55,132 nt of DNA from IMG/VR virus record IMGVR_UViG_3300043427_002441, positions 1 to 55,132 of that record. One strand, 5' to 3'. Every line of letters starts with the position of its first letter. Within the stretch, counting starts at the first letter, position 1. The DNA is from a virus. Made by a program: the position numbers and the translations under genes. The notes under the pieces were generated by a model, which worked only from the letters and a program-made list of their open reading frames with translations, made no database searches and was not told the DNA's origin. Shown piece after piece: positions 15,680 to 47,566 of this stretch.

Positions 15680-15712
15680 AGGAGTGTTCCCATATCTTAT
15701 ATTTATTTTAAG

Positions 15713-15795
15713 TGCGAGTAGGGAGACTTGAACTCCCACGGGCAATGCCCAACAGATTTTAAGTCTGGTGTGTCTACCGATTCCACCATACTCGC
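15713..15795 (-). tRNA. tRNA-Leu (UAA)
   Basis: 83 nt. Acceptor stem GCGAGTA/TACTCGC, T-loop GTTCAAGTC, anticodon loop CTTAAAA giving UAA, and an extra variable-arm stem (GGGCA-TTG-CCC) as expected for class II tRNA-Leu. It decodes UUA/UUG, frequent in AT-rich phage genes. A consensus-like sigma70 promoter lies just upstream. Confidence 0.95.
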
Positions 15796-15806
15796 TTGTT
15801 AGGACC

Positions 15807-15835
15807 ATTATAACTCATAGAGTCTTAATGGTCAA
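15807..15835 (-). promoter_or_regulatory. sigma70-type promoter between two tRNAs
   Basis: Minus strand: TTGACC (15830-15835), 17-bp spacer, TATAAT (15807-15812). It starts directly after the 3' end of tRNA-Met and would initiate close to the 5' end of tRNA-Leu. Confidence 0.75.
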
Positions 15836-15836
15836 G

Positions 15837-15910
15837 TGCAGGTTGTGGGGATCGAACCCACCTTAGCCGAATTATGAGTTCGGTGCTTTCAACCAGAGAG
15901 CTAAACCTGC
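15837..15910 (-). tRNA. tRNA with CAU anticodon (Met, elongator type)
   Basis: 74 nt. Acceptor GCAGGTT/AACCTGC, anticodon stem CCGAA/TTCGG, loop CTCATAA giving CAU, T-loop GTTCGATC. The G1-C72 pair argues against initiator tRNA. A lysidine-modified Ile2 identity cannot be ruled out. Its first ten bases overlap the stop end of the HNH gene. Confidence 0.9.
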
Positions 15911-16332
15911 TCGTTTAGGAACTCTTCCCAACTACTTCCATAGTGTAGCATATGGTGGCAGTTATGGCAAAGAAGATCGCATTTGTCAACCTCTTCTTTG
16001 ATAAGTTCCCATTTTCTATTTGCAAAACTTCTCCCATCAAGATTAAACTCTTTTTGAGATGGATCTCTATGATGAAAGCATAGAGTTGCTGGTCTTTTTT
16101 CACCACAAGTTTGACACTTACCACCTTTATATTGAAGGGCTTCCCATTTATTGGAATAACCTCTTGCTTTTTGTTCTGTGTAAGTATCCCTGTTAATCAC
16201 AACAGGATCATTTTTATAACGCCATTTTTGCCTACACGCATTACTACACCATTTTTTTAATCGCCCTTTTGTTATCCTTTCATTAAGGATATCACAACCG
16301 CAACCTTGACAAGTAGTAATAGTAGTAAGCAT
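15901..16332 (-). CDS. HNH homing-type endonuclease
   Basis: About 143 residues. An N-terminal zinc ribbon-like segment (CQGCGC, CSNACRQKW) is followed by a Cys pair (CQTCG), an HNH core around LCFHHRDPSQKEF, and VDKCDLLCHNCHHMLHY. These supply the metal-binding His and the structural zinc Cys pairs. Such enzymes nick or cut DNA and often spread beside tRNAs in T4-like phages. The ATG at 16332 is chosen because the upstream GTG lies at or before the expected start of the late transcript (TATAAATA at 16361-16368). The stop codon lies within the first bases of tRNA-Met. Confidence 0.85.
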   Translation of the reverse strand: MLTTITTCQGCGCDILNERITKGRLKKWCSNACRQKWRYKNDPVVINRDTYTEQKARGYSNKWEALQYKGGKCQTCGEKRPATLCFHHRDPSQKEFNLDGRSFANRKWELIKEEVDKCDLLCHNCHHMLHYGSSWEEFLNEQV

Positions 16333-16360
16333 TATGGTGTTATGAACGTATACATACACC

Positions 16361-16368
16361 TATTTATA
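16361..16368 (-). promoter_or_regulatory. consensus T4 late promoter TATAAATA
   Basis: Exact TATAAATA on the minus strand, 29 bp before the chosen HNH start at 16332. It would give late expression of the endonuclease and possibly tRNA-Met. Confidence 0.75.
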
Positions 16369-16384
16369 ATAAATGTATGTTGGA

Positions 16385-16470
16385 GGAGAGATCCATACGA
16401 TGAAACAGAGTCGCAATACAAGTCATAGGTCTGTTTCGCACCGACTTGCAGCTGGGGTTTTTCACTCTCC
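16385..16470. ncRNA. candidate pseudoknotted structured RNA
   Basis: GGAGAG (16385-16390) can pair with CTCTCC (16465-16470). Inside, GAAACAGA (16402-16409) pairs with TCTGTTTC (16430-16437). CAAGTC in that hairpin loop (16419-16424) pairs with GACTTG (16443-16448) just 3' of the hairpin, an H-type pseudoknot. A T-run follows on the plus strand, but all neighbours are on the minus strand, so orientation is unresolved. It lies between tRNA-Ile and the HNH gene with no ORF. I cannot assign it to a named class; the phage manA and wcaG motifs are the first to compare. Confidence 0.45.
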
Positions 16471-16532
16471 CTTTTTCAAGTAGGTTTTCTGTTGCTTACC
16501 CTCTAAAACCCACTACAAAATGGATAAGCAAA

Positions 16533-16604
16533 TAGGGATACTGGGAGTTGAACCCAGACTAACCCGTTATAAGCAGGCCGCTCTAACCATTAAGCTATAC
16601 CCCC
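16533..16604 (-). tRNA. tRNA-Ile (UAU)
   Basis: 72 nt. Acceptor GGGGGTA/TATCCCT, anticodon loop CTTATAA giving UAU, T-arm CTGGG-TTCAACT-CCCAG. It reads AUA, a codon favoured by AT-rich phage genes and rare in higher-GC marine Synechococcus. Confidence 0.93.
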
Positions 16605-16619
16605 ATAAAACCCTGAGAA

Positions 16620-37738: not shown

Positions 37739-38431
37739 TTACTTTCCCCCGTATGCTTTATATCTGGTTCCTTCTGGATTAGACCATTTTCTTTGAGTAA
37801 ATTTACCTGTTGTTTTATTCAACTCACCTGATTTTCCTTTAAGTTTAGCAAGAACTCTCGTAGGTGAAGGAGTATCAAGAGATCCTTTTTTTGCAGCATA
37901 TGGTTTAGATGAATTCACTTGTGATGGAGATGATACTTTAGATCCTCCATAATCTCTGGCAATTCTAGAAACTGAACTTACATAAATGGGAGAAGTTGCA
38001 TACGCACCATGACTTACTTCTTTTGATCCAGGAATTCTTTGTCCTCCAGGTATCTGCAGTCTAGTTGCAGCATCTTCAACGTCTTTAGAACCTCTAGTTT
38101 TATAGCTCCACTTATTAATTCTATCAGCAATAGAAGAATCTAAACTATCATAATCCTTAAATTTTGCTGAAGTATTATATCTACCACTTGCACCATACTC
38201 AAAAGTACCTTTTGATGTTCCTTTTTCGTTTGAACTTGCTTTTTGTCCAAAATAATTCCAAGAACCACTTGGACTTTTACCCCAACCTGTTTCTAAGGCA
38301 CCTTGAGCAGCAATAAGATTAGATTCAACGTCAGTTGCTCCCTGTCTTTTTGCTCTTGTTTTTATGTCATTAAAAAACTGCTGCTCTCTGCTACTTTGAG
38401 CTTCTGAAACAAATTGACTATAAGGCTTCAT
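37739..38431 (-). CDS. glucosaminidase (GH73-like) with capsid-targeting-like N-terminus
   Basis: A 230-residue protein. Residues ~15-165 match the N-acetylglucosaminidase (GH73) fold: LIAAQGALETGWGKS with catalytic-type E47, WNYFGQKAS, YNTSAKFKDYDSLDSSIADR, and YVSSVSRIARDYGG. The C-terminal ~60 residues are basic and low-complexity. The first 11 residues, MKPYSQFVSEA, resemble the capsid-targeting peptide of T4 internal proteins (MKTYQEFIAEA). The enzyme may therefore be packaged in the head and injected, or act as an endolysin; no signal peptide or holin is nearby. A CATAAATA late promoter lies upstream. Confidence 0.8.
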   Translation of the reverse strand: MKPYSQFVSEAQSSREQQFFNDIKTRAKRQGATDVESNLIAAQGALETGWGKSPSGSWNYFGQKASSNEKGTSKGTFEYGASGRYNTSAKFKDYDSLDSSIADRINKWSYKTRGSKDVEDAATRLQIPGGQRIPGSKEVSHGAYATSPIYVSSVSRIARDYGGSKVSSPSQVNSSKPYAAKKGSLDTPSPTRVLAKLKGKSGELNKTTGKFTQRKWSNPEGTRYKAYGGK

Positions 38432-41399: not shown

Positions 41400-41428
41400 A
41401 TTTTACATAAAAAAAGGGGGGAAGTCAA
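41400..41428 (-). promoter_or_regulatory. sigma70-type promoter nested in a terminator
   Basis: Minus strand: TTGACT (41423-41428), 17-bp spacer, TAAAAT (41400-41405). The -35 is in the terminator loop, and the spacer consists of the terminator's C-run and T-run. It drives the unit that includes thyX, phoH and gp33. Confidence 0.7.
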
Positions 41429-41435
41429 TCCCCCC
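41408..41435 (-). terminator. rho-independent terminator
   Basis: Minus strand GGGGGG (41430-41435), eight-base loop, CCCCCC (41416-41421), then eight T. It ends the riboswitch-controlled peptide genes eight bases after the stop codon at 41443. Confidence 0.9.
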
Positions 41436-41442
41436 TGGTTTA

Positions 41443-41544
41443 TTAAGCAACTTGTGGTTGTTTTGCCATATTAATTTGTGCAATATGGAGAAGTTTTTCT
41501 TTCTTTGCTTTTTTCTTAAGATAACGAACGAAGTAAGTATTCAT
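41443..41544 (-). CDS. basic micropeptide (33 aa)
   Basis: Reads MNTYFVRYLKKKAKKEKLLH, then IAQINMAKQPQVA. A strongly basic amphipathic helix with seven Lys in its first 17 residues. GAGGTGG precedes the ATG, and ATGA overlap with the upstream stop indicates coupling. It is the second and last gene of the transcript controlled by the NtcA/glutamine leader, ending at the terminator. It could bind RNA or an acidic host protein; no family known. Confidence 0.65.
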   Translation of the reverse strand: MNTYFVRYLKKKAKKEKLLHIAQINMAKQPQVA

Positions 41545-41699
41545 TTTGCCACCTCGCTATTATTGCAAGGACGGTATGCTAATCCTCTATATGTATTTTG
41601 AGGATGAGCAGGGGCATGAGTCCTGTTATACCAAGAAACATACTCTTTCTTTGCATCTTCGGTGTCGTATGAGCACCCTCTATAAACAACTTTTGACAT
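41541..41699 (-). CDS. riboswitch-controlled DUF4278-like peptide (52 aa)
   Basis: Reads MSKVVYRGCSYDTEDAKKEY, then VSWYNRTHAPAHPQNTYRGL, AYRPCNN. The duplicated 'YRG-x-x-Y' motif (residues 6-11 and 37-42) recalls the cyanobacterial DUF4278 family. A strong AAGGAGA lies nine bases before the ATG. It is the first ORF after a glutamine riboswitch of the downstream-peptide class, whose defining feature in cyanobacteria and their phages is a short ORF of this size. It is therefore probably made or shut off in response to glutamine. Confidence 0.8.
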   Translation of the reverse strand: MSKVVYRGCSYDTEDAKKEYVSWYNRTHAPAHPQNTYRGLAYRPCNNSEVAK

Positions 41700-41730
41700 T
41701 AGGTTTTCTCCTTAGTTTTTTAGGTTAAAG

Positions 41731-41830
41731 AGCGTTCCTTCAGTCGGCTTTTGCGTTCGCTATTTGCGAATAGCGAATGAACGATCCGTTCCGAGTCGGC
41801 TTACTTCCGTCCCATATGGGATGAACGTTA
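41731..41830 (-). promoter_or_regulatory. glutamine riboswitch (downstream-peptide / glnA class)
   Basis: On the minus strand the leader reads CGTTCATCCC, a short hairpin over a TCCCATATGGGA palindrome, then the conserved GGACGGAAGTA block, a variable arm with TTCGCTATT/AATAGCGAA, and the 3' block CCGACTGAAGGAACGC. CGTTC (41823-41827) closes with GAACG (41733-41737) as P1. GGACGGAAGTA and GAAGGAACGC are the hallmarks of the cyanobacterial glutamine aptamers. It lies 31 bp before the peptide start codon, starts at the expected transcription start, and likely controls translation of the 52-codon gene. Confidence 0.85.
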
Positions 41831-41835
41831 GGGGA

Positions 41836-41865
41836 ATTATACCCCTAGTCAAGGTATATAGTCAA
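41836..41865 (-). promoter_or_regulatory. sigma70-type promoter of the riboswitch transcript
   Basis: Minus strand: TTGACT (41860-41865), 18-bp spacer, TATAAT (41836-41841). The predicted start near 41829 coincides with the 5' edge of the riboswitch. Confidence 0.75.
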
Positions 41866-43630: not shown

Positions 43631-46600
43631 TTAAAATCCAAGATGCTTCTTACGAACAAAATCCAAATCATAAGTTGTATAAGTAACAGGTAGATTAGGA
43701 TTGTTGAAAGGATATTCCCAAGGTTGATAATCCCAATCATCACCCATAATTACCACCCAAGACTCACCCCATTTGTGTGCTATGTAATCAACTTCGTTTA
43801 AAACTCTGGAGTGATGTAATTTATCGTGAAGTTCGGGTTCTATTTTTGAAGTTTGTGAACCACCTTCTTTATATCCACCATCTCCATGTAGATAAGATGT
43901 ATTAATTGGTTCCCTCTTGACATTTGCTTTGTCTAAACGTATTAGATAATCACAATCCTCCACATATGCGGGATAGAAATTTTCATCAAAGAGTCCAACT
44001 TTTTGAACAACCCAATCTTTGAGTAAGAATAAATCAAAGTATCCGACCATTCCAATTTCTGGGTCTTCAGATTTTTCAACCATCTCTCTCAATAACCCTG
44101 GTGAGAAACAAACATCATGACTAGCAATAATCCAATAAGGTTCAAGCATATAAGATTTGATAATCAAATTCCATGCACCAGAGCATCCAATGTTTGAAGG
44201 AAGATGGCAAACCTTAATGTTCTTAATAAACTTATGATTTTCCTGGCAAATACTCTCCAATTCCTCAGTGATTTGTCCACGACCATTGTTATTAAAGATA
44301 ATAAGATCTTTGACAGGATAATCAACACTGTCGATTAATCTTCTCAACCAATGTACACCATTAACAATTGGAACACCTATAACTGGTATTTCTTTCACAC
44401 TTTTAGATGCCTCAATCTCAGCATTCAATTCATCCAAATTAACACCAATATGTTTAAGATTGTTATCAACCAAAATATTAAATTGTGAGTTCATCTGATG
44501 ATTTTTTTTCAGGTCTATAAAAATTTCCTTTGACTCATCAACTTTTCCCCACCACCAACCAGATAGAGCCTTTTCAAATAGAAGACCATACTTTCCAGGA
44601 TACTCAACATCAGTTCTTAGTGGCGGTTGATTAAAATCACAGTACAAAAGAGCAAGATGAGCATTTAAATAACAATCTTGCCACCATGATCTCTGCTCTG
44701 CATATCGACTTAGAAGAAAATATGCTTCTGGTCTGTCTGGTCTAAATGCCTGTGCTTGGAATAACATTCCTCTTGAACTTCCATCTCGTTCTCCTTGTTT
44801 TGAGTAGCAAAAAGATCCACGAATGATTGCTTCATAGGCAAGGTCTTTGTCTTCAGACCTTTCTGCACAACGCAAATAATATGAAAGAGCAGGAGCATTA
44901 TGTCCTTTAGATTCATACCATAGTCCAAGATTAAAATTGTTTTCTGCATTTTCAACATCTTCAGAAAACGCTTTCAAAAGATTTTCAAACTCAGATTGGT
45001 CATCTGAAGTATCGTCAAACGGTAATAGAAACTCTTTTACTCTTGGTAAATCAAAAATAATCTGAGGTAAATCCTGCACAGGATAAAACTTCATTATAAA
45101 GTCACTCATTCCCGATGGACAAACTTGACCTTCAGTTCTAGTGTAATTGAGCATGAAATTTTTCATCTCATTGCTTGCATAATTTTTATGAGATAATGAG
45201 TCAATAACCTGGTCAGCATGACAAAATGATTTTGCCTTTGTCAGTCTATTCTCGTTTGTACCCATCCAACTAAAGTGCCACCCCAAACCTTTCATCATCT
45301 GTCCATTTTCATATGGCCAAACGATTGGATAAGGATTATATGTATCTGCACGAACTTCGGTAAATCCTACATTAGATGCTTGTTCTTTTGTACAAAGGAA
45401 TAAAGAAAATCTCCAATCCCTAGGTTCACCAGTATCTTTATGGTACGCTCTCATGTCAGCACTACCCTCAAGATGAACAAGATCAATTTTAAAAATATTC
45501 TTAGGATGACTTATTACCAAGTCACGCAGCATCGGAATGTACGTTGGATTTAAAATTTCATCGCAGTCAGACACAATAAACATTGTGTCTTCATCAAAAT
45601 TATTTGTTTGTAAGCACTTTGCAAGAGCATTTCTTTGAACCTTTTCCCGTGATTCACGGGCAGGATTTTTATCCCAAACTTTTTCATAGGGGGTTGCTGG
45701 TCCTAATGCAGCATCAGAAAGGTCAACCTCAATAACTTCAATAATATCTTCAGGAAGACCAAGTTCTTTTATTGTCTTCTTAAGAGTATAATCTTTTGGA
45801 ATTCCACTATGAGTGTGATTCGCATCAGTAATTACAAACTTATCCACATGATCTTTTAAAAGATTAATTCTCAGTTCAAGAATTTCTTTTTCATTAAAGT
45901 ATGGAAAACAATCAACTACTTTTTTCTTTTTAGTAGGAATTTTTGCCTTAACTGTAAATGCTTTTGCCATAATTTCATCTATAGATTTAGTGTTTTTTTG
46001 CCACAATTCCAGAACACGATTGTGAGTGTAGTAATGATTTTTCTTTTGACCGTCCTTTACATCACCATCATTTCCTTCAAATGTAGATTGAAATTTCGTA
46101 TCTTCTACAAATAATGGAACAGTATAAACGTTACCAGTGAAAAGAATCGTCTCTATCAATGGTTGAACATCTGGGTTCTCACATTCAAGATGATATGAAT
46201 CTTTTCTGATATGCCTATCAATAAGTTTTTTGGCATGGGATCTTTTTATAATATAAGCCGTGACAGACCAATCATCCCAATACCTATTTCTTAAACAAAG
46301 ATTATCAAATTCTCCACGGATACACATTAATTGAACACATTCCCAATCATCAGGCAAGCGTTCTATAAAGTCACCCCAAGTAAAGTTCCAATATTCAACT
46401 GTCTCTAAACTCAAATCATCTTCACAGAAAAATCCATACTCTTCATTTGTACTATTATACCACTCCTTTATAGATTTTAAATGAGATACGGCACATCCTT
46501 TTGTACCATCGTTTAAAGTATGAACATAAGGACCAGTTACAACATCATTAGACTCACTGAATCTTTTTGAAATAACTGGATTTGGAATAATTCCATACTT

Positions 46601-47566
46601 AGAAAATTGTGCTCCTATATTTTTTTGTCTATCAATACTCTCATCTAATGTGACATAAAATACGGATGGCAAATCTTTTAATTTTGATTTAACTTTTTTT
46701 GCAAAGAACTTATTTACACCAACATTTTCAATTTTCCAATTTATTTTTTTCTCAATAAAAAATTCTTTTAATTCAAAATGCTCATGCTTATTTTTTTGTA
46801 TCAATTTTTCTGCAATTACATAATCTAAATTTCCCCGAACTTCATCAGGAGAATCATATTGTTCTTGTAAAATTGGTAGATAATATTCTTCTATCTCTAG
46901 GTAGTCTTTACAATTTTCAAATCTTTTTCTGTCTGGATGGGGTAAGTGGATTATGGACCCATCAAATTTAATTGTTCTATGCTCAAGTCCAAGAAGTTCT
47001 AGGCGAGATAAAATATTTGTATCTTCCCATCCATAAGTTTCAATTGATTCATCATATCCACCAACTTTATCAAAATTTTCTTTACTCACATAAAGAATAC
47101 CTTTCAAAAACTTAAACAAAGGATTATATGTAAAAACGTAATCACGGATTGCTCCGATATCCATTTTGTAAAAATCGATATCATAACAACCGGTCTGTTC
47201 ATTATAATATTCAACTGCTTCAACTTTAGAAAGTCCAGAAATAAATGAATTTTCATCAACTGGAAACTGTCCAAAAAAATTAAGATAAGGATTTAATATG
47301 TAATCACAATCAAACTTTGCAATGTAGTCTTGAGTTGCTAAACTTGCTGCAAGATTTAAAGGTTGAGCCAGATTAAAATATTCCTCACCATCAACTCTCA
47401 CCACTTTTATTCTATCATCTACTTCAGTAAGATGATCAATTGGTTCATCAGAGCTCCAATCAACAATGATAATCTCTTTAATCTGTTCAAAATGTAACCA
47501 TGATTGAAGAGAAAGTCTTAAAGAGTCATACCTGTTTTTGCAGGCACAAATAACAGAAATATTCAT
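43631..47566 (-). CDS. multi-domain glycosyltransferase (GT2-GT25-GT17-TPR-GT2; 1311 aa)
   Basis: Five modules can be seen. Residues 1-215: GT2-type (MNISVICACKNRYDSL, D86-C-D, and YGWEDTN near 178-184 like galactosyltransferase C-lobes). ~300-495: GT25-like (VFYVTLDESIDRQKN, FFCEDDLSLETVEYW, SHAKKLI). ~548-820: GT17-like (VDCFPYFNEKEILELRINLL, SDCDEI at 666-671, GWHFSWMG). ~880-1040: TPR-like helices. ~1070-1290: second GT2-like domain (EIPVIGVPIVNG, NNNGRG, NIGCSGAWN, VEDCDYLIRLD). It could assemble a glycan on phage fibres or alter host surface sugars. A GH130-like gene ends two bases upstream. Confidence 0.85.
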   Translation of the reverse strand: MNISVICACKNRYDSLRLSLQSWLHFEQIKEIIIVDWSSDEPIDHLTEVDDRIKVVRVDGEEYFNLAQPLNLAASLATQDYIAKFDCDYILNPYLNFFGQFPVDENSFISGLSKVEAVEYYNEQTGCYDIDFYKMDIGAIRDYVFTYNPLFKFLKGILYVSKENFDKVGGYDESIETYGWEDTNILSRLELLGLEHRTIKFDGSIIHLPHPDRKRFENCKDYLEIEEYYLPILQEQYDSPDEVRGNLDYVIAEKLIQKNKHEHFELKEFFIEKKINWKIENVGVNKFFAKKVKSKLKDLPSVFYVTLDESIDRQKNIGAQFSKYGIIPNPVISKRFSESNDVVTGPYVHTLNDGTKGCAVSHLKSIKEWYNSTNEEYGFFCEDDLSLETVEYWNFTWGDFIERLPDDWECVQLMCIRGEFDNLCLRNRYWDDWSVTAYIIKRSHAKKLIDRHIRKDSYHLECENPDVQPLIETILFTGNVYTVPLFVEDTKFQSTFEGNDGDVKDGQKKNHYYTHNRVLELWQKNTKSIDEIMAKAFTVKAKIPTKKKKVVDCFPYFNEKEILELRINLLKDHVDKFVITDANHTHSGIPKDYTLKKTIKELGLPEDIIEVIEVDLSDAALGPATPYEKVWDKNPARESREKVQRNALAKCLQTNNFDEDTMFIVSDCDEILNPTYIPMLRDLVISHPKNIFKIDLVHLEGSADMRAYHKDTGEPRDWRFSLFLCTKEQASNVGFTEVRADTYNPYPIVWPYENGQMMKGLGWHFSWMGTNENRLTKAKSFCHADQVIDSLSHKNYASNEMKNFMLNYTRTEGQVCPSGMSDFIMKFYPVQDLPQIIFDLPRVKEFLLPFDDTSDDQSEFENLLKAFSEDVENAENNFNLGLWYESKGHNAPALSYYLRCAERSEDKDLAYEAIIRGSFCYSKQGERDGSSRGMLFQAQAFRPDRPEAYFLLSRYAEQRSWWQDCYLNAHLALLYCDFNQPPLRTDVEYPGKYGLLFEKALSGWWWGKVDESKEIFIDLKKNHQMNSQFNILVDNNLKHIGVNLDELNAEIEASKSVKEIPVIGVPIVNGVHWLRRLIDSVDYPVKDLIIFNNNGRGQITEELESICQENHKFIKNIKVCHLPSNIGCSGAWNLIIKSYMLEPYWIIASHDVCFSPGLLREMVEKSEDPEIGMVGYFDLFLLKDWVVQKVGLFDENFYPAYVEDCDYLIRLDKANVKREPINTSYLHGDGGYKEGGSQTSKIEPELHDKLHHSRVLNEVDYIAHKWGESWVVIMGDDWDYQPWEYPFNNPNLPVTYTTYDLDFVRKKHLGF
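46375..46429. repeat. 55-bp block duplicated at 52877-52931
   Basis: This 55-bp stretch within the GT25-like module is identical to 52877-52931 in the methyltransferase-GT25 gene, including synonymous positions. The protein segment is FCEDDLSLETVEYWNFTW. Flanking codons diverge, indicating recent local recombination or gene conversion. Confidence 0.8.

Follow-up and report, generated by a model that had tools for sequence, protein, structure and literature searches.

The minus strand of a 55,132 nt viral sequence (IMG/VR record IMGVR_UViG_3300043427_002441, the whole of which is called the window here) carries a leader with two copies of a glutamine riboswitch motif in front of a small gene. 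The locus raises the question of whether such a leader holds two glutamine aptamers or one, and of what the RNA would control. Genes for PhoH, ThyX, an exonuclease, and a glutaredoxin around the locus match those of T4-like cyanophages. Elsewhere on the minus strand of the window are an ORF of 1311 codons encoding several glycosyltransferase domains (Pfam GT2, GT17, and GT7C, with GT25 weak) at 43631-47566, three phage tRNA genes (Leu-TAA, Met-CAT, and Ile-TAT) at 15712-16605, and a Glucosaminidase-domain protein (PF01832), likely a lysin or tail hydrolase, at 37739-38431.

The unit is ordered promoter, aptamer element, DUF4278-like ORF, basic ORF, and terminator (Table 1). From the strong sigma-70-like promoter, which stands immediately before the aptamer element, transcription is predicted to start at the first base of the aptamer or a few bases away from it. 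No terminator is present in the window sequence between the aptamer and the DUF4278-like gene.

Table 1. Features of the glutamine riboswitch locus, in window coordinates.
Feature	Positions	Strand	Remarks
Sigma-70-like promoter TTGACT-18-TATAAT	41836-41865	-	11 of 12 consensus bases; predicted by position
Strand-swapped composite glutamine-I aptamer, two RF01739 motif copies with one common P3	41733-41827	-	RF01739 matches, covariation, energy
Outer P1, 5' strand CGTTC	41823-41827	-	pairs with 41733-41737
P2 hairpin TCCCATATGGGA	41810-41821	-	loop able to hold gene ORF1 in relatives
J2/3 canonical core CGGAAGTA, copy 1	41802-41809	-	
Shared P3, 5' strand AGCCGACT	41794-41801	-	covaries with 41742-41749
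Inner P1' hairpin GAACG-GAT-CGTTC, capped	41779-41791	-	loop 3-5 nt in nearly all relatives
P2' hairpin TTCGCTATTCGCAAATAGCGAA	41756-41777	-	gene ORF2 instead in most relatives
J2/3' CGCAAA, degenerate core of the inner unit	41750-41755	-	
Shared P3, 3' strand AGCCGACT	41742-41749	-	covaries with 41794-41801
J3/1 canonical core GAAG, copy 2	41738-41741	-	
Outer P1, 3' strand GAACG	41733-41737	-	
Candidate expression platform CTCTTTA...TAAGGAG	41708-41732	-	could mask RBS AAGGAG (41713-41708); sequence and folding
DUF4278-like peptide gene, 52 codons, two YRG motifs	41541-41699	-	72 viral relatives
Basic peptide gene, 33 codons	41443-41544	-	ATGA overlap with the DUF4278-like gene
Intrinsic terminator ending the two-gene unit	41415-41436	-	

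A glutamine aptamer with a divided core

A first-pass annotation had described the leader as a cyanobacterial glutamine aptamer, with two hallmark blocks closed by a CGTTC/GAACG stem and a 52-codon ORF with repeated YRG motifs behind it. Both blocks were found on the minus strand, GGACGGAAGTA (to 41802) and GAAGGAACGC (from 41741), and the ORF with its two YRG motifs follows the leader. The stem is also present and was correctly paired, being the outer P1 of the composite described below. The annotation is confirmed in these points. What it had not noted is that each block comes from a separate motif copy, the element being a composite of two.

The annotation had also proposed scoring the leader with the Rfam glnA and Downstream-peptide models. 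The glnA (glutamine-I) model, RF01739, has a gathering cut-off of 35 bits, and in cmscan it gave 35.4 bits for copy 2 (41785-41729, minus strand) and a sub-threshold 28.8 bits for copy 1 (41829-41787, minus strand). When RF01739 was searched per genome, copy 1 reached 38.7 bits, above the cut-off, and copy 2 again 35.4; each of the matches in the window is near the threshold. The Downstream-peptide (glutamine-II) model, RF01704, was rejected at 19.9 bits against a cut-off of 33. Other weak Rfam matches near the site, among them Trp_leader and LhrC, fell far under their cut-offs and were likewise rejected, the Trp_leader match being the terminator of the upstream gene.

The RF01739 matches, together with covariation over hundreds of relatives, support the identification of the leader as a type-1 glutamine aptamer before a DUF4278-like small gene. 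The glutamine-I class is linked to DUF4278 genes in hosts (PMC6316151), and glnA elements have been reported in phages before (PMC9964418, PMC9004378). The full RF01739 core, CGGAAGUA and GAAGGAACG around one three-way junction, is found in the composite only and in neither copy alone. Copy 1 keeps the core half CGGAAGUA and ends CG-GAACG, and copy 2 keeps GAAGGAACG, ends GAAG-GAACG, and carries CGCAAA. It is the front half of copy 1 and the back half of copy 2 that make up the full canonical core.

The two copies share one P3 helix

If the two copies fold as a composite, a core divided in this manner requires pairing between the strand that follows CGGAAGUA and, in the other copy, the strand that precedes GAAGGAACG. 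The 5' strands of P1 and P3 from copy 1 would pair with the 3' strands from copy 2, forming one outer glutamine site with the core CGGAAGUA and GAAG. The inner unit would be circularly permuted, its P1' capped by a loop of 3-5 nt and its core degenerate (CGCAAA).

Across 247 distinct viral composites (215, and 32 more from marine contigs) the P3 strand of copy 1 pairs with that of copy 2, as AGCCGACN/N'GCCGACU. The closing pair changes in step (U-A, G-C, or A-U), and the strand lengths covary (5/5, 6/6, 8/8). The shared strands match in 29 combinations among the 215, to which the marine contigs add more. These combinations include AGCCGACT/AGCCGACT, AGCCGACG/CGCCGACT, AGCCGACA/TGCCGACT, AGACAACT/AGTTGACT, GGACGACG/CGCCGCCC, and CGCCGACT/AGCCGACG, as well as the shorter GGACGG/CCGCCC and AGTCG/CGACT. 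Among 96 distinct skeletons, 66 end P3 with a U-A pair, 25 with G-C, 4 with U-G, and 1 with A-U, and none departs from standard pairing. Pairing in P3 was observed at 77%, against 6-39% in slid controls. Pair counting gave the inter-copy P3 a covariation score of 0.311, against 0.142 +/- 0.016 for shuffled alignments, and 0 of 500 shuffles reached 0.311; by the same counting the P3 helices of a tandem model have no covariation.

That tandem model, in which two independent aptamers each bind glutamine and give a steeper, pseudo-cooperative control, has the Rfam output in its favour, in which the copies are scored as separate matches. Tandem glutamine aptamers are known and have been read in this way (PMC2864571, PMC9481103), with 157 glutamine doublets counted as pseudo-cooperative systems in a 2022 review (PMC9481103), and viral contigs do contain true canonical doublets whose P3 hairpins are local. 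Such a tandem has a P3 hairpin and a full core for each aptamer. In the window-type element neither copy has the full core, and 12 of 30 sequences have broken local P3 helices. The spacer between the copies is 3-5 nt rather than the ten or so of canonical doublets. Nearest-neighbour energy also favours the composite over the tandem, being lower for 69 of the 70 hairpin-type sequences (by a mean of -5.0 kcal/mol). A plain tandem was therefore rejected on covariation, core content, and energy, and it is very improbable as an account of this leader. The published match in phage S-CREM1 is a single one of 99 nt, which is consistent with one unit.

Judged from sequence comparison, which supports P2 and P2' as well as the shared P3, the two copies form a single strand-swapped composite around one canonical core for glutamine, not independent tandem aptamers. 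In nearly all relatives 3-5 nt separate the inner GAACG from the CGUUC, a spacing that fits the capped hairpin P1'. The strands of P1 and P1' are invariant and thus give no covariation evidence either for or against the composite. Two features count against it: most sequences have two A.C mismatches in P3, and many phage composites have CGCAAGUA in place of CGGAAGUA in the outer core. A single canonical aptamer without an inner unit was considered and found incomplete, since the 60 nt that separate the P3 strands make up a second, conserved unit. Canonical single aptamers and true tandems with local P3 are also present in viral contigs, making the composite a derived form, perhaps from a doublet whose strands were exchanged.

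Some variation was noted within the inner unit. The inner P1' loop of one leader (L001, about 1810-2000) has a 44-nt insertion able to form a long hairpin. The P2' stem TTCGCTATT/AATAGCGAA, found at 41756-41777 of the window and in many relatives, is nearly invariant among distant phages although any stem would serve, and the same stem is also found as P2 in other phages.

Genes within the P2 and P2' loops

Similarity to the DUF4278-like peptide of the window was the sole basis on which 72 viral loci were fetched, and 59 of these have the composite. In 47-48 of the 59 a gene of 50-70 codons replaces the P2 hairpin (ORF1) or the P2' hairpin (ORF2). Both ORFs are present in 17, ORF2 alone in 27, and ORF1 alone in 3; one more has ORF2 and is truncated by the contig edge, and the other 11 have only hairpins. 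Cultured phages are among them. P-HM1 and P-SSM4 have nested ORFs in both loops, and S-SSM7, P-SSM7, S-CAM8, P-RSM6, S-SRM01, DSL-LC02, and DSL-LC03 have one in P2'. S-PM2, S-CREM1, and Bellamy have hairpins without nested genes, as does the window, which counts against the explanation preferred below. Several nested ORFs are already hypothetical genes in GenBank (PHM1_179, PHM1_180, PSSM4_169.2, 169.3, and SSSM7_289), where their annotation makes no mention of a riboswitch. A gene in P2 was found in none of 82 canonical single aptamers.

A nested gene has its start codon in the P2 stem, and both ends of ORF2 are parts of the aptamer. The start of ORF2 lies in the 5' arm of P2' (UCUAUGG, UCCUAUG, UCCCAUG, UCCUUAUG), and its stop is a UGA that begins with the final base of P3 and runs into the core GAAG (...GAC GCA AAA GCC GAC UGA, the protein ending DAKAD). 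The length from AUG to the core UGA is a multiple of three in 150 of 153 distinct ORF2s. Where the last base of P3 is not U, and there is no UGA, 25 of 27 composites lack the ORF and have a hairpin instead; with U, 69 of 220 lack it. In 138 of 149 cases an unbroken P2' stem includes at least part of the AUG, and in 67 all of it. The mean P2' stem is 6.05 bp, compared with 2.75 bp when the arms are taken across sequence classes. In S-SRM01 (L075) the P3 pair has become C-G, so that the nested ORF no longer has its UGA stop; base pairing in the RNA has been preserved at the price of lengthening the protein.

The nested ORFs have the marks of protein genes. ORF2 has a third-position excess, and its median dN/dS is 0.52 in a small length class and 0.20 and 0.38 in the two large ones. 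Its proteins have two invariant cysteines and DA-D in common, and the predicted structure is a helical hairpin (mean pLDDT 86), for which a structure search returned, of note, only other uncharacterised cyanophage proteins. Pfam gave no match, and NCBIfam no credible match, to the nested proteins. ORF1 proteins often have a signal-peptide-like start (MTKALLLLAWVPLLS), and in the ORF1 RNA hairpins are maintained with compensatory changes, one at the start codon being conserved. In an alignment of 29 ORF1 RNAs, GACATCGTTAAAAACGACGATGT is almost invariant, and two members (L120 and L153) change both sides of the stem together, so that the coding region of ORF1 also holds a conserved RNA hairpin.

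T4-type phages are known for mobile promoter/stem-loop cassettes. It could be supposed from this that the small genes are simply separated by a repeated intergenic element that is spread by recombination and uncoupled from them, the aptamer being a relic or a site of processing or recombination. The P2' content, hairpin or gene, does differ between phages with downstream peptides that are 85-90% identical, and some half-elements stand alone at contig ends or behind an endonuclease-like gene. In one such case (L070, IMGVR_UViG_3300013132_002326, before position 2001) the endonuclease-like gene adjoins a composite with the second unit only, including ORF2, as if copy 1 had been replaced. An uncoupled element is nevertheless improbable, as covariation of P3 and P2 extends across the entire element, the outer core is preserved, and in nearly all cases the start codon is base-paired to the opposite arm of P2'. 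In addition, the canonical single aptamers have no gene in P2 (82 of 82).

The downstream peptides

The likeness of the 52-codon gene product to DUF4278 proteins, proposed in the first-pass annotation, is borne out by its context and less so by its score. It is a small protein with YRG at two places behind a glutamine riboswitch, the setting described in hosts (PMC6316151), and its match to PF14105 over residues 3-49 is 21.6 bits (E 0.00029), under the Pfam cut-off of 25.3 bits. By its sequence, the window peptide therefore resembles DUF4278 and is not filed as a member.

Domain searches with the basic 33-aa peptide behind it gave no family match and no recognised inactivating-factor domain. 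The YRG and basic peptides are separate in the window, fused with YRG first in S-CREM1, and fused in reverse in S-CAM8 and Bellamy. These fusions suggest that the two probably act together. By analogy with IF17 they might act on the glutamine synthetase of the host, which is no more than a lead.

A model for regulation

The explanation that is considered likely for this leader is a strand-swapped type-1 glutamine riboswitch with one outer canonical site, which would be ON with glutamine and would hide the nested genes. Glutamine would stabilize and close the outer site. As in the host class, the folded state would free the downstream RBS, and it would also hold the nested AUG within P2 or P2' and so hide the nested start. 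The sole purine-rich stretch upstream of the nested gene, GGAACGGA, would be held in P1'. One RNA could in this way give the nested protein at low glutamine and the DUF4278-like peptide at high glutamine. The full two-output switch, with the ligand burying the nested start and opening the downstream gene, translating ribosomes unfolding the aptamer, and reciprocal expression following glutamine during infection, is put forward tentatively, its chances being judged somewhat below even. In the window copy only the downstream arm would operate, with control over the DUF4278-like peptide and the basic one that follows.

The direction of switching was approached with a folding model. In S-PM2, enforcing the aptamer raised RBS accessibility from 0.11 to 0.54, and this leader thus models as ON. 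In the window leader there was no change (0.25 to 0.26), which counts against the preferred explanation. The platform hairpin CUCUUUA/UAAGGAG masks the RBS in both modelled states of the window leader, and the core AAGGA could compete for UCUUU. These would suit an OFF switch, or control of transcription, in the window phage. Either is unlikely given the S-PM2 result, the lack of a terminator between aptamer and gene, and the report that glutamine-I and glutamine-II are ON switches acting on translation in hosts (PMC6316151).

Significance and relationship to known systems

The strand-swapped composite indicates that a tandem aptamer pair scored as such by databases can be one domain-swapped RNA. 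At the least, the glutamine doublets of cyanophages should be reread with regard to cooperativity and stoichiometry. It also provides a widespread natural case, including the cultured phages P-HM1, P-SSM4, P-SSM7, S-SSM7, S-CAM8, P-RSM6, and S-SRM01, of a conserved protein gene inside a metabolite-sensing aptamer, with a start codon common to an aptamer helix and a stop codon common to the aptamer core. A direct test of the coupling of cyanophage gene expression to host nitrogen status is thereby opened. No description of the strand exchange or of genes in aptamer loops, and no paper on ORFs inside aptamers, was found in the literature searched, the coverage of which was partial, so that an earlier description is possible. 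In a scan of hosts with the junction pattern, whose 14 fixed bases are too few, all of the matches listed were non-cyanobacterial.

Group I introns can carry ORFs in peripheral loops, and the nested genes resemble these in being protein genes in the loop of a functional RNA. They differ in three respects: the surrounding RNA is an aptamer for a metabolite, the ORF encodes no homing endonuclease, and the aptamer includes both the start and the stop codon. Glutamine-II RNA resembles the window leader in preceding a small DUF4278-type gene, there in marine picocyanobacteria; the window leader is set apart from it by its low RF01704 score. IF17/gifB, a glutamine synthetase inactivating factor with a DUF4278 N-terminal part and, at its C-terminus, a basic inactivating domain through which it binds the enzyme, shares the combination of a glutamine riboswitch with a DUF4278 protein. 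In the phages, a basic helix follows the DUF4278-like peptide, fused to it in some, and domain searches recognised no inactivating-factor domain there.

With the glutamine-I (glnA) RNA itself the composite shares P1 (CGUUC/GAACG), P2, the core CGGAAGUA and GAAGGAACG, and its site before DUF4278-type genes. It differs in that the core is divided between two copies, P1 and P3 are exchanged between them, and the long P3 holds an inserted, permuted second unit, with genes in the P2 loops of relatives. Like the published tandem doublets (PMC2864571, PMC9481103), it has two head-to-tail motif copies before one gene. Those have been read as two complete and independent aptamers, whereas the copies of the composite covary together and make one complete site.
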